Source of the DNA: Caulochytrium protostelioides
Taxonomy: Eukaryota > Chytridiomycota > Caulochytriomycetes > Caulochytriales > Caulochytriaceae
Length of the DNA: 64,000 nucleotides
Direction: 5' to 3'
Assembly: GCA_003615045.1 (NCBI GenBank)
Contig: ML014146.1
Location: forward strand, 63,070 to 127,069
Position 1 is the stretch's first letter. Every line of letters begins with the position of its first letter. The position numbers were made by a program, and so were the translations under genes. Below are positions 52,466 to 58,419 of this stretch, one piece after another. The notes below the pieces were generated by a model that was not told the origin of the DNA, ran no database searches, and saw only the letters and a program-made list of their open reading frames with translations.

Positions 52466-53296
52466 ATGGATGACTTAGGTAACGCTTTGTTTGTGCTGCT
52501 TATATCGAAAATCTGCCAAGTCGTCAGACATCAACCAACGTGGCTACTCACGCTCGCTCGCCTTTTTATTCCATCTCTGGGGATTCTGATCGCATTAATA
52601 TGCGCGTGCATTTATGCTTATGCACTGTGATGTCTTACAGATAAGCTGCTGGCCGACTTGTCGGCCAAGGTCCACGGCCAAGGCTCGGGCGATCCGCTTG
52701 CGCCCTGCATAGACAGCACGCCCGAAAACGCGGTGACGTGCAACTTTTGCAACGAATTCATTATGTCAGATGATTACATTATTGCTGGCAGCAACACATT
52801 CCACAAGGAGCACTTTTTTTGCAGTCAGTGTGGTGAACTGTTCCCGGAAGAGGCGACGTTTTACCAGCACGAAGGCCGCGCTTACTGCGAGGCTGACTTT
52901 ATCGCCATGTTTTCCGAGCAGTGCTATGGCTGCAACCAACCTTTGTTGGACAACATTCTGGATGCGCTCGGCCACAAATGGCATACGCGCTGTTTTACCT
53001 GCCATTACAAGGGCTGCACAACCAATCTCTCGCAGCAGGGGTTTCTCACTCACAACGATGAACCCTTCTGCGCCACGCATTACCCAGCTGTGGCATCGAC
53101 GCTGTGCATGGGCTGTGACAAACCTATCGAAGGTCGTTGCTTCACGGTGAACGGCCGCAAGTTCCACATCGATCACTTTATCTGTTCCTTTTGCAAGCAG
53201 CGCATTGAGTTACCCAACTCACCAAATCAAGCCACCTTCCGGTGGCAGAGTGACAAACCATTCTGCATGAAATGCCATATTAAGCTCTACGGCTAA
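52466..53296 (+). CDS. PXN: Paxillin-like LD-motif and three-LIM protein, 13-nt first coding exon
   Basis: The coding sequence joins exon 1 (52466-52478, only 13 nt) and exon 2 (52641-53296), 222 residues. The 162-nt intron begins GTAACG and ends TTACAG; phases fit (G plus AT gives Asp). The spliced N-terminus is MDDLDKLLADLSAKV, a textbook LD motif (LDxLLxxL) at the same place as LD1 of animal paxillin, which also starts MDDLD. Exon 2 alone has no ATG in this region, which confirms the upstream exon. Three LIM domains follow: CNFCNEF...CEADF (about 32-85), CYGCNQPL...CATHY (about 93-146) and CMGCDKPI...CMKCH (about 152-215), each with the expected Cys/His zinc ligands. Animal paxillin has five LD motifs and four LIMs, so this is a reduced form. 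Paxillins scaffold cortical actin and adhesion sites; yeast Pxl1 acts in polarity and cytokinesis with Rho1/Cdc42 factors. Confidence 0.92.
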
Positions 53297-53653
53297 ATAT
53301 ACTTTATATATACACCGGTGCATGCCGAGATGGATCAGATCCTGACCAAGATGAAACCCCCGGACCCCACGGCCGTGCCGATCTCTCGCGCGTCCCCGGC
53401 AGGCTCCCACCCCACCGCGCCGACGGCGGTCAACCGGCTCCGCATGTCCCGGGTGTATGCCCAGACGCATGTGGTCCTGAAACCTCGTCAACGCCGGCGC
53501 AAGGGAACCTTGGTCCGAAGTATGCTATGGTGTGATTCCACCAACGGTAAGTTCGTGAGCCGCGATCGCAACGCCGCTATGAACATCCGACGCTATCTGG
53601 CCTCACGGGTCAGACCGATGGCGTTGTGTCGCCTCCCCAGCCAAACCCCATAG
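53297..53653 (+). pseudogene. Decayed C-terminal fragment of a Fanzor/TnpB-like nuclease
   Basis: A frame of about 111 codons (first ATG 53330) ends at TAG 53651. Its second half resembles the C-terminus of the TnpB/Fanzor (OrfB) family. RMSRVYAQTHVVLK (42-54) sits where the zinc ribbon's first pair lies (usual pattern TSxxCxxCxxxL). LWCDS (70-74) sits at the second pair. SRDRNAAMNIRRYL (81-94) matches the last RuvC motif, whose Asp is catalytic. The two cysteines of the first pair are replaced by Tyr and Thr, and everything N-terminal to this point (guide-binding and most of RuvC) is missing, so it cannot be active. It begins 21 bp after the paxillin-like stop and in the same frame. I infer an old insertion of which only the 3' part survives. 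No terminal repeats were identified. The family call rests on motif spacing, without a database search. Confidence 0.65.
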
Positions 53654-54678
53654 CAGCCCTTGGTCGGCAAGCTCATCCGACGATAAGCCGAATGCGCTGC
53701 CGCGGGAGACCCCTGGGGTCCACCTTGATCACCACGGAACCGCGAGCCAGTGTCATTCTGGGGTTAAACAACGTGGACCAGCAAGGTCGAAGCAGATCAC
53801 GCGTGCATTCTGCCAGCAGGTGTGGCCACAGGAGGTGGGCCCACGGATTCGGGAAGTAGGGGTCGAACCAAGGCAGGTGTGGACTAAGGGAGGGCCGGCG
53901 GCGTCATTTTCGCCCTCTGCGCCCCTCCACCCCTCTTGCACTCCCTCGCTTTCTTTGTCCCGCCAACCGCCGTGTTGCTCGGGTGGAGCAACGCGGCCTT
54001 GTGCGAATCATCTGAAACGTTGCATGTTGCATGAGCCGAGAACGATCTGCCGCATTCCAATGCATGGGTCTATAAATCTGAGCAAACGTTAACAAAAATA
54101 ATTGACTGATATGATTGCGTTGCTCGGGTGTATCTCATGATGCGGGTAGTTGAGGGACCATCTCCAGACTAGTCATCTCGGTGCCACGCGGCCCGTCGCT
54201 GGCCGAGCCGGCCGAGTCGCGCCCCATGCCCCAATGGTCAACACCAAAGGACTCAAAACATGCGCCGATCGGCAATCAACACGTCGGAGTTCACCCGGAG
54301 GCCGATCGGTGGCTGCGACATCCCCTTCTGCTAGCGCGCAACGCTGGATGAAGGCTTCCCCGGAACATCCATGTTTGTCCGGGTGCCCCTTCTTTATACC
54401 GAGGGATGCATATGAGATCTGTCTGGAGCATGACGACGATCAGGATAGCGTTGATGATCCCTCATAAGCGACGTGGAAGGGGCGACCTGGGGTCTTGAAA
54501 GCCTAAACATAATGACATCACATCTCTGCATCTCAGGAAAACCAAAACATCCCTCTTCGTCCGGCCTCTGAATCAATTGAATCAATTCCACATTGAATCC
54601 GAAGCACGCCATCCTGCCTCAGTCGCGGCCGTGCTTCTGCCAACATCGAACCATTCATGCCGCCCACGTAACATAGCC
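53654..54678. other. Spacer upstream of the type IIC ATPase
   Basis: About 1 kb between the nuclease relic and the ATPase start. It may contain more decayed element sequence on the left, but I find no motif. The ATPase frame is open from 54577, but its first residues are unconserved and the ATG at 54679 has the better context. Confidence 0.45.
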
Positions 54679-57600
54679 ATGGCCGACCCACCCCCACCCG
54701 CCTCGACGGGGAAATCCAGTGGGACGGGCAACTGGTTCCAGCGATCCTTCCACCGGCACAGCACCCAGCATGCCGCGCTCGTGCTTGCACAGCCCGAGAC
54801 CGCCGCCACGGGCGGACCCACCGATGGGATTCCGTTGACGCCGACTTCGCCCCACGGGGTAGGCCACAGCAGCACGAATGGCAGCGTGCCACCGACGTCA
54901 CCGATCGCAGCACCCGGCGAAGGCAAGCTGAATGGCGACCGTGGCATCGACGACGCGCTGCTGTCGATTGATATTGTGGAGCACCAATGGCCGATGACAA
55001 AGCTGCTGACCGAATATCAGACGCATTTCGTATCGCGGCGGCCAGCTGACTCGGAGGGCTTGGCCGAAATCCACGTGGTGGCCGCGCGAGAGAAGTGGGG
55101 CCGGAACGCCAATCCACCCCCCGCGAAGCGGCGTTGGTATGCAAAGTATCTCAGCTCGCTGCTCAATTTGTTCAATGTCATGCTGCTCGTCGGTGCCGTC
55201 TCGTACCTTATTCTCTATGTGTTTGACCAGGACGACACGGATGTACTCTGGATCTCGATTGTGCTGCTAGTTGTGGCGTTCGCCAATGCGGCGATTGAAA
55301 CCTACCAGACGATCAAAATTTCGTCGCTACTGCGCTCGTACAATGAGATGATCAGCCCTGTCTGCCACGTCATTCGCAACAAGACGTTGATGGATGTCCA
55401 CCACGACGACCTCGTTCCTGGGGATTTGATTCTCTTCCGCCCGGGCGAGCGCGTGCCCGCGGACTGTGTCCTTGTCGCCTGCAGCAACTTCAACATAGAC
55501 TCGAGCGCGTTGACGGGCGAGACAGAACCGCTGCGCAAGATGGTGATCGAGAAGGGCGCCCCCGAGACCTGCCCGCACATGGAGGCCAGCAATCTGCTGT
55601 TCAGCGGATGTAACGTGCTCTCAGGCGAAGCTTATGGGCTCGTGATTCGCACGGGCCCGCGATCCATGATCGGCCGCATCGCGAAGCTTTCGGGCCGCGC
55701 CTCGACCAAAACCTCCCGCGTCCCGCTCAACCGTGAGATTCGCCGGTTCGGCCACACAATCACACTGCTGGCGCTGGCGACGGCCATCGTGCTGTTTACA
55801 ATAGCGATGGCCCTCCGCCGCTCGTTCCGCAACTCTCTCCAGGTCGCACTGGGCATTCTGCTGGCATGGGTACCCCAAGGCCTAGCGGTGACCGTGACCC
55901 TGATTCTGAGCATTTCGGCGGGCCGCATGATCCACAAGAGTATCCTCGTCAAGGATCTGCATGGCGTGGAGACGCTCGGTGCGATCACGATGCTCGCGAC
56001 CGACAAGACAGGAACCCTGACGCGCAACGCGATGCAGGTCACGCATCTGTGGACCAACGGGATACTCGCTTGGGCCGGGATTGGCGGACCCGATCAGTGC
56101 CCCAAAGGCGAGCGCTACCTGCGCCGTGACGAGCCGGGTCTCCAGAATGTTCTGCACTGTAGCGTTCTTTGCGCGAATATTCAAGTCGAGCGTTCCGGCG
56201 AAAACAACTCGGAAGTCACCTATCGTGGTGATGCGACCGAAACGGGGTTGATGCGATTCGTTGCCTCAAGGCTGCAAAATTGGGACAGTCTGCGAAAACT
56301 GTATCCGTCCGTCTTTTCGATCAGCTTCAGCAGCACCTCCAAGTACCAGCTCTCGATCCACCGCAAGTCCCATGCGCAGGGCGGATTAACGTTGTATGCG
56401 AAGGGCGCACCTGAAGTAATTATGGGGTTCTGCGACAAGATCATGTTGGATGGCCGCGAAGCGCCGCTGACCCCGGCTCATCTGGCTGCCTACCAAGAAA
56501 TGCAGAACACCATGTCTGCCAACGGATCGCGCTTGATTGCCTTTGCCCAGCGACCCCTCGATAGCATGCGCTTTCCGGACAACTATGCGTTCAGCACCGA
56601 CAAGAACAACATCCCCACCTCGGGGCTCTGCTTGCTGGGGATCGTCGCGCTGGAAGACCCCTTGAAAGACCGCGTCAAGGAATCAATTGGAATCATGCGA
56701 TCAGCCGGTATCCGCGTGGTGATGATCACGGGTGACCATCCGCGCACCGCAGAGGCCGTGTCGCGCAAATGCAATATCCTGACGGGCCGAACCCGCGCGG
56801 AGGTCGCTGAAGCGCAGGGCGTCCGCGAGGCCGATCTGAACCCGGGGCAGTACAATGCTTGGATCATCTCCGGTAAGGACATGCTGACCATGACCCCCAG
56901 GGACTGGCTGCATGTCTGGCTGTGCGAAGAAGTCATCTTTGCCCGCATCAATCCACTCCAGAAAGTGGAGATCGTGGCACGGGCCCGTGAGGCGGGCCAT
57001 ATCGTGGGTGTCACGGGTGACGGCGTCAACGATGCCGCGGCGCTGAAGGAAGCCGACCTGGGAATCGCCATGAACCGAACCGGCTCGCAGGTCTCCAAAG
57101 ACGCCGCAGACATGATTGTGCTCGACGACCAGTTCGCCTCGATCGCAACCGGCATTCTCGAAGGTCGTCTCATCTTCCACAACTTAAAGAAGGCCATCCA
57201 ATACTCGCTCAGTCACATCATGGCCGAGATCATCCCTTATGTCTGCGCGATTCTTTTTGGGCTGCCCTTCAGTCTAACTTTCCTCCAGATCCTCGTCGTG
57301 GATTTAGGGTTTGAGCTCTTTTTGACCTTGTCATTTGCCTGGGATCCTGTCGAAGACCAGGCGGCCATGATGACGATGCCACCGCGAAGACCGTTCAATC
57401 CAGACTTGTTGCGGTGGAAGTATGACAATCCCGACTACGAAAAAAAGAGCGCGACCGCCCCCGCAGGCCAGGGCGTCGGCGTCGATGCGACCAGCCCCGC
57501 ACCGGACCAGAACGACGATGCTCAGGCTCTGTTGCAGGACGAGAGCAGCGACGAAATCAAGCTACTGCACAACCGTTACACAGGATACATGGCCGAGTTA

Positions 57601-58419
57601 CGAATGATGCTTACGCAGCGACGCTACTGGCTGGAACAGTACGCGGAGATGCGGGACATTAGCAAACGACAGGCGCACAACGCCCTCGTTGACCGTGAGC
57701 TGCTCTACTGGGCCTATCTCGAAGCCGGGATGCTCGAATTTTGCGCGGCCTACCTTACCTTCCTGGTGGTCTTCAGCAAGCTCGGCTTCAATCTGTCGGA
57801 TTTGCACCGCGCTGCGGTAGGAGAATACTTCCGTTCCTCATCGCCTGTCTTTGTGACGAATCACGGCCTCGAAATTTCGGCCGCCGCGCAAGTCTCGGCT
57901 CTCTGTCAAGCCCAGAGCGCTTATTATTTGTCCATTCTCATCATGCAGATCTGGAACAGCTTTTGCTGCAAAGCACGAATTCGCTTGCCTTATGGCCTGT
58001 TCATGTTCCGGTAAGCATTTGCATTTCCTTGCGAAGAGTCCTAATCCGATCAGTGGTGAAGGCAAGACTTACGTTAGCGAGTCGCATACTCACACATACC
58101 GGATCTTGATTTTTTTCTTTTTCGTGACGGATCCGCCGATAGCAACACGAAAACGATCATCTCGATCGTGGGGAGCGCCCTGTTCGCAATCGGCGTCGTG
58201 TACATTCCCTTCATGAACGCTGTGTTCCGGACCTCCTACCAACTCAATCCGCTGTTCCTCTTTATACCCTTCGGATTCGGCGCTTTCCTGCTGTGCTACG
58301 CGACGCTGCGCCGCTTGGCACTTCGACGCTGGAACCCTGAGAAGTGGGCTGTGACGATGACCGCAGGCGAGGCGCGATGGCAGGCATCGGAATGGGTAAG
58401 GCACTTCGCCAACTTTTGA
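54679..58419 (+). CDS. P-type IIC cation ATPase (Na+,K+-ATPase alpha-like), two exons
   Basis: Exon 1 (54679-58010) and exon 2 (58143-58419) give 1202 residues. The 132-nt intron begins GTAAGC and ends CGATAG; phases fit (CG plus C gives Arg). Exon 2 supplies the last membrane helices (TIISIVGSALFAIGVVYIPF). The start in CCATGG is preferred over an upstream ATG at 54577. Residues 1-90 are Ser/Pro-rich. P-type hallmarks are LTGETEP, Asp442 in DKTGTLT, TGDGVNDAAALKEADLGIAM and the ISLLN-type segment KYLSSLLNLFNVMLLVG. Class IIC is indicated by LLAWVPQGLAVTVTL, LHGVETLGAITMLATD and the M6 LVVDLGFELFLTLSFAWD. It should be an ion pump of the plasma or an internal membrane. Key ion-site residues differ from animal pumps (see findings), so the transported ion is uncertain. 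No beta subunit is in the window. Confidence 0.92.

Follow-up and report, generated by a model that had tools for sequence, protein, structure and literature searches.

The closest described counterparts of the element reported here, a decayed copy in a 64,000-nt stretch of Caulochytrium protostelioides contig ML014146.1 (the window, whose own numbering is used throughout), are Fanzor1 proteins and the mobile elements that encode them. According to Yoon et al. (2023), Fanzors carry a DPG motif and a shifted glutamate, many of them have a zinc finger, and a TDG motif in the WED domain is a feature of Fanzor1. A C4 zinc finger is described as strictly conserved in TnpB and Fanzor proteins by Bao and Jurka (2013; PMC3627910). 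SpuFz1 from the chytrid Spizellomyces punctatus (PDB 8gkh, 9ceu–9cez) has a CCCC zinc finger, and its guide RNA is given as 90 nt; the corresponding element, SPu-1, is described with 33-bp terminal inverted repeats (TIRs) and nine copies with intact open reading frames (ORFs) (PMC3627910). The Fanzor1 of Parasitella parasitica (PDB 9cf0–9cf3) likewise has cysteines at the aligned zinc sites. In Chlamydomonas reinhardtii, the families CRe-1, 2 and 3 are described with 5 or 10 exons, Helitron-like ends and target-site duplications (TSDs) of 7–19 bp (Bao and Jurka 2013). The Caulochytrium family resembles SpuFz1 in its RuvC order, its chytrid host and a 3′ tail similar in length to the guide RNA. 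However, it lacks the C4 site present in SpuFz1 and the Parasitella protein and, unlike SPu-1, has no recognised TIR and no intact copy among the matches listed. With the Chlamydomonas families, compared by description and not by sequence, it shares over-abundant 3′ ends, 5′ truncation and internal deletions, but TSDs can hardly be detected and no link to Helitrons emerged.

We read positions 53312–53738 of the forward strand, with a probability of about 0.9, as a dead, 5′-truncated copy of a Fanzor1 element that retains the C-terminal end of the ORF and a decayed 3′ tail. A first-pass annotation of this DNA had described the 118-aa open frame at 53297–53653 (+) as a relic of a Fanzor/TnpB-like nuclease and supposed that the genome hosts or hosted such elements. 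The frame is present in the sequence, and both proposals are supported by a search of the assembly with it, which gave at least 159 matches (150 of 829 candidates were scored, the list includes the window, and one copy may give two matches). The best match outside the window has an E-value of 2.5e-41 and 61% identity; by blastn, the nearest of the other copies compared is 79.4% identical. The relic thus belongs to a large family in C. protostelioides whose copies have decayed. Sixty loci and the window were each aligned, by a script that tolerates frameshifts, to one stretch of a single copy, and the longer copies show the domain order of Fanzors: an N-terminal part with an S/T-DG motif after it, IIGNDPGRTNI (RuvC-I), VDEFRTT (RuvC-II), a TNB segment and NRDLNAALNI (RuvC-III).

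A protein search with an alignment of nine sequences, in which only the 7,997 candidates sharing most words were scored, found at least 64 relatives at E≤0.01, 51 of them 580–725 aa long. The relic is linked to these proteins through the genome copies, not directly by searches with the 118-aa frame. Two of the 64 belong to Tetrabaena socialis (P0012 and P0058), and most others, P0002 and P0023 among them, are probably metagenomic in origin. A profile of 50 relatives (566–922 aa) matches three PDB sequences only, all of them Fanzor1, the best being that of Parasitella (E 1.7e-19). For the AlphaFold2 model of one relative, P0002 (pLDDT 91.7), the closest structures are also Fanzor1 (Foldseek 1.5e-22), with a fold in common with SpuFz1 over 523–531 of 594 residues; further matches are Cas12f (6.1e-07), mimivirus Fanzor2 (4.2e-06) and TnpB (1.2e-04). 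The predicted fold of P0002 is thus that of Fanzor1, and P0002 also matches the window directly (E 2.3e-13). The TDG motif is found in alignment A4, where T314 and G316 are conserved at 90% or more and D315 is invariant; of five Caulochytrium copies inspected, four have SDG and one has TDG. A 66-row tree unites the nine Caulochytrium rows (100/97) and places them as sister to P0023 (100/99), in a clade with P0002 and the two Tetrabaena proteins. This tree holds no other Fanzor, and so does not give the place of the clade within Fanzor1. By predicted fold and profile, rather than by the motif of 2013, the clade is filed as a Fanzor1 variant, and its intact members should, by homology, be RNA-guided DNA nucleases. 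The precomputed Pfam family PF26935.1 is found on 27 of the 64 relatives, including P0002 and P0005, and part of the clade is therefore probably catalogued already.

Several results weigh against the assignment. Searched alone, the 118-aa frame yields nothing useful from Pfam, PDB or the protein collection. A profile built from the alignment A3 has no match in PDB, and a first 12-row profile matches no Fanzor there and IscB weakly (best E 0.0076). The cut-off of PF07282, the zinc-ribbon model, is passed only by P0005 (27.1 versus 26.3 bits) among the 12 rows and 12 relatives scanned. Given the base composition, a frame this long would stay open by chance with a probability of ∼2.4%, which makes the frame alone weak evidence. 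IscB was set aside as a candidate: the matches of the 12-row profile cover positions 3–98, on either side of DPGRTNI, and neither A3 nor A4 reproduces them. NCBIfam matches of the 12 rows were chance-like and were discarded. No relative of P0047, P0005, P0052 or P0030 was found in viral contigs, in a search with a few peptide patterns for each.

The catalytic residues are conserved across the family. The RuvC-I DPG is present in 17 of the 27 Caulochytrium rows long enough to include it (a count made by eye), and in the 50 long relatives its aspartate is found in 50 and its proline in 43. The alternative RuvC-II glutamate, six residues ahead of zinc site 1, is kept in 31 of the 41 rows that have a residue at this position and in all 50 relatives, while the aspartate of the RuvC-III motif RDxNAAxNI occurs in 40 of 48 rows, in 49 of 50 relatives and in the window copy. 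The D-E-D triad is thus found in 50, 50 and 49 of the 50 long relatives. By contrast, cysteine occupies zinc sites 1–4 in 6, 0, 32 and 0 of these proteins, so that the C4 arrangement is absent. Among the 61 proteins with a RuvC-III motif, none carries two Cys pairs within the 130 residues upstream of the motif, and only P0054 has any CxxC there; an earlier count of 0 of 66 used a stricter pattern, unattainable for fragments and for proteins with DTG. In the aligned Caulochytrium copies, the four sites are mostly H, T, Y or C, and T: of 44 rows with a residue at the site, 39 have His at site 1 and 34 have Thr at site 2. The P0002 model has β strands at 526–530, 533–546 and 549–554 in this region. 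These counts describe a Fanzor1 clade that lacks the C4 zinc ribbon and keeps its catalytic residues. Because most Caulochytrium rows read H, T, Y or C, and T, the missing cysteines of the window copy are, on the same alignments, an inherited family state, and the suggestion in the first-pass annotation that a zinc ribbon had degraded in this copy does not hold.

The window copy starts just after the RuvC-II glutamate, and the 5′ edge of its homology lies at 53312, so that the first five residues of the 118-aa frame are upstream of the blastn match. The TNB segment begins with VHAEMDQILTKMKP (53318–53359, +), which has His at zinc site 1 and Met at site 2. Its first residues, VHAEM (53318–53332, +), are the counterpart of the first Cys pair. 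The first-pass annotation had placed that pair elsewhere: RVYAQTHVVL lies in a P/A/R-rich insert of ∼50 residues (about 53360–53509, +) that is specific to the Caulochytrium family and missing from P0002 and P0023. The final RuvC motif that the annotation reported is borne out: within SMLWCDSTNGKFVSRDRNAAMNIRRYL (53522–53602, +), LWCDS pairs with the last TNB strand of the family and SRDRNAAMNI with its RuvC-III, and the codon of the catalytic Asp is at 53564–53566. The frame is closed by a TAG at 53651–53653 (+), ten codons ahead of the next in-frame stop, a TAA at 53684–53686 (+) in the same register as the stop of other copies. Homology continues past the TAG to ∼53738, and 53687–53738 (+) appears to be a decayed remnant of the structured 3′ tail; the tail model matches 53686–53725 weakly (E 0.018), with no match in the window tail at E 1e-3. 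As RuvC-I and RuvC-II, two of the three catalytic motifs, are missing, the window copy cannot act as a DNA-cutting nuclease. In a subfamily of other copies (L018, L022, L023, L040 and L048), the family insert is longer and contains repeat-like AGASPAEPTPATPVR segments.

Upstream of the relic, on the same strand, is a host gene whose frame encodes LIM domains (52631–53296, +). The 118-aa frame opens directly after its stop codon and the relic begins 15 bp past it. The relic probably occupies the 3′ untranslated region of this gene. The arrangement would also suit a frame that belongs to a host gene, for example by extending the LIM gene at its 3′ end, and merely resembles TnpB. We give that explanation next to no credence, given that the at least 159 related genome matches read as fragments of one protein. 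Downstream of the relic, a frame of 1171 aa (54499–58014, +) has a DKTGT motif and reads like what we take to be a P-type cation ATPase.

Elsewhere in the genome, the family is decayed as well. The first-pass annotation had raised the possibility of full copies, but no copy spans the protein in one open frame among the at least 92 genome matches listed to a 594-aa relative (74 of 979 candidates scored, in an assembly of 337 contigs). The longest of those listed covers residues 233–587 and has an internal stop. Of the 31 copies in which 200 or more codons are aligned, four (L010, L012, L022 and L025) are free of stops and frameshifts in the aligned stretch; in another alignment, L025 has a stop and the other three begin after the RuvC-I motif. 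Rates of difference at the three codon positions are 0.243, 0.222 and 0.272 (41 rows), and therefore point to mostly neutral decay of the copies. L051 (214–253) and L059 (∼33–72, copy orientation) have a sequence in common upstream of the Fanzor part, reflecting either a segmental duplication or a derivative with another 5′ sequence. An annotated C. protostelioides protein, CXG81DRAFT_23488 (P0001), is encoded in the genome of the window at 99–100% identity. In this protein, a Fanzor fragment (the first ∼140 aa) is joined to a second segment whose coding sequence lies at a distance of 1.5 kb (C6:206925–207350 and C6:208883–210124), and it is either an exonised relic or a gene-model chimera.

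The first-pass annotation had also advised inspecting the 3′ flanks for a guide region. A hairpin region resembling a guide RNA does follow the stop codon in the family, and its role as a guide is unproven. Hairpins were counted in 33 of 39 listed tails; the list excludes seven of 46 rows (the window, L030, L034, L009, L015, L045 and L010), and the stems were picked after the alignment had been viewed. Between the stop and the terminus, the stem CYTCGG/CCGARG is paired in 91.4% of cells over the 33 aligned copies, with a change from U-A to C-G in nine copies and from C-G to U-A, G-C to C-G and G-C to U-G in one copy each. The nine-copy change may reflect a single subfamily split. The outer stem AATGCGC/GCGCATT is paired in 76.7% of cells and shows no double change. 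Cells with double changes number 12 versus 5.2±1.8, a value reached in 1 of 500 shuffles, and 83.3% of stem cells are paired versus 81.0% (0 of 500); the stem covariation score was reached in 14 of 500. Two other counts are not exceptional, that of pairs showing double changes (116 of 500) and that of additional pair types (198 of 500), and one version with slid stems gave 15 double-changed cells at 39.9% paired. Two results argue against a conserved structure: folding z-scores of four copies are −1.06, −0.48, −0.85 and −2.36, three of them not unusual, and RNAalifold finds almost no covariation on its own structure. Rfam has no match in the window at gathering thresholds. Known Fanzor1 guide RNAs, reported at 90 and 75 nt, are similar in size to this region. 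We regard it as a candidate guide RNA; the hairpin could equally be a transposon end.

The copies share their 3′ end more often than their 5′ end. In one subfamily, they end near GTTAAACTCAATATA, which has 49 sites within 3 mismatches and none for the reversed pattern, while other copies end in other AT-rich tails. These tails are variable: CTCAATATA is present twice in L034 and L058, AAATAAATATAAATATA is found in L033 and L040, and some tails carry a doubled 9-mer. First-look candidates number 829, 453 and 247 for C-terminal, middle and N-terminal protein queries, and 443 and 52 for 3′ and 5′ DNA queries, counts that depend on the length and conservation of the query. Among 20 loci taken from the N-terminal and middle lists, the 3′ tail is found in 14 and the 5′ end in 5; seven of them are also in the C-terminal list, L032 is cut by a contig end, and L030 has its 5′ end on the other strand. 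Two features of this comparison count against the bias: the loci were picked by hand, and the tail model (33 rows, 4 of them among the 20 loci) and the 5′ model (3 rows, all among them) differ in sensitivity, which makes it a rough one. The blocks of 20 tail-picked copies measure 281 to 1086 nt and are spread across this range, and the farthest 5′ edge is reached only by L038 and L044. A common 3′ end with varying 5′ ends suggests retroposition or one-ended replication, neither of which is proven.

Retroposition, in which Fanzor transcripts would be reverse-transcribed at the target from the 3′ tail by an enzyme like that of long interspersed nuclear elements (LINEs), is a serious if tentative possibility. 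It would account for the 5′-truncated copies with a common 3′ end, the short AT-rich or tandem 3′ tails and the lack of a recognised TIR, and the genome contains a LINE-like ORF, one 1165-aa open frame (C234:2368–4338) with RVT_1 and Exo_endo_phos_2 matches, the latter weak (E 0.0019). On the other hand, the contigs that bear reverse transcriptases (C234, C311, C94 and C110) contain none of the 49 matches to the terminus, and TSD enrichment is weak. The mean is 5.22 versus 4.85 in 36 copies. In 43 copies, duplications of at least 6 bp occur in four (9.3% versus 2.9%) and of at least 7 bp in one (2.3% versus 0.7%), a test in which some 3′ anchors are misplaced (by inspection, those of L034, L036, L042 and L035) and copy lengths come from another analysis. 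The best case is L066, with an 8-bp match at both edges that may have arisen by chance. A reverse transcriptase remnant upstream of L023 (∼2160–2450, copy orientation; C183:11550–11840), which we take to be of Ty3 type, was dropped as a partner.

One-ended rolling-circle transposition of the Helitron2 kind, as proposed for CRe-1, 2 and 3, is a possibility we entertain a shade more guardedly. The CRe families are described as combining 5′ truncation and internal deletion with intact 3′ ends, and Helitron2 elements as carrying end hairpins (PMC3627910). Caulochytrium copies show similar features, among them L055 (900–1004 and from 1010) and L041, which keep 5′-end sequence and the 3′ end and lack inner parts, and the volvocine alga Tetrabaena has members of the clade. 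The 3′ terminus does not follow the CTRR rule quoted for Helitrons, although Helitron2 ends differ, and no Helitron_like_N domain was matched in a search whose control was also silent, so that its absence is not shown. An ordinary DNA transposon with TIRs, whose copies decayed by deletion, is the type of several known Fanzor1 elements, SPu-1 included (PMC3627910, PMC10711439, PMC10432273). It is unlikely here: no matching inverted ends were recognised in three copies that have 5′-end sequence, the one 13-nt match in L032 is internal, and the 3′ bias persists in loci that were not chosen by their 3′ end. Retroposition and a Helitron-like one-ended process both fit the dispersal data.

From the longest copies, the Fanzor1 element would measure ∼2.5 kb, with a leader of ∼150 nt, an ORF of ∼700–780 codons and a structured 3′ tail of ∼100 nt. 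The ORF would run from the N-terminal part through the RuvC-I DPG, the RuvC-II glutamate and TNB to the RuvC-III aspartate, and the intact protein would be an RNA-guided DNA nuclease like SpuFz1. The 3′ tail may act as the scaffold of the guide RNA and the adjoining host DNA as the guide. Copying would begin at the 3′ end and advance in the 5′ direction, often halting early, by a replicative process such as retroposition or one-ended rolling-circle transposition.

Among the papers listed in our literature searches, none deals with Caulochytrium Fanzors or with a Fanzor clade without a zinc ribbon; the clade may be in print already, as a survey of Fanzors across eukaryotes reportedly appeared in 2023. 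Since PF07282 misses 11 of the 12 relatives scanned, searches that lean on this model would under-count such Fanzors. A clade that keeps the catalytic residues and lacks the C4 site offers a natural test of the role of the ribbon. The 3′-biased dispersal, resembling that of the Chlamydomonas Fanzors, is relevant to the question of what role Fanzors play for the elements that encode them. It is conceivable, if rather unlikely, that this clade, with a plain β-hairpin in place of the ribbon, spreads by reverse transcription, that its 3′ tail serves both as guide scaffold and as the start of copying, and that the short 3′ copies are 'ghost' guide loci. If so, these loci, each beside different host DNA, would have widened the target list of the master enzyme.
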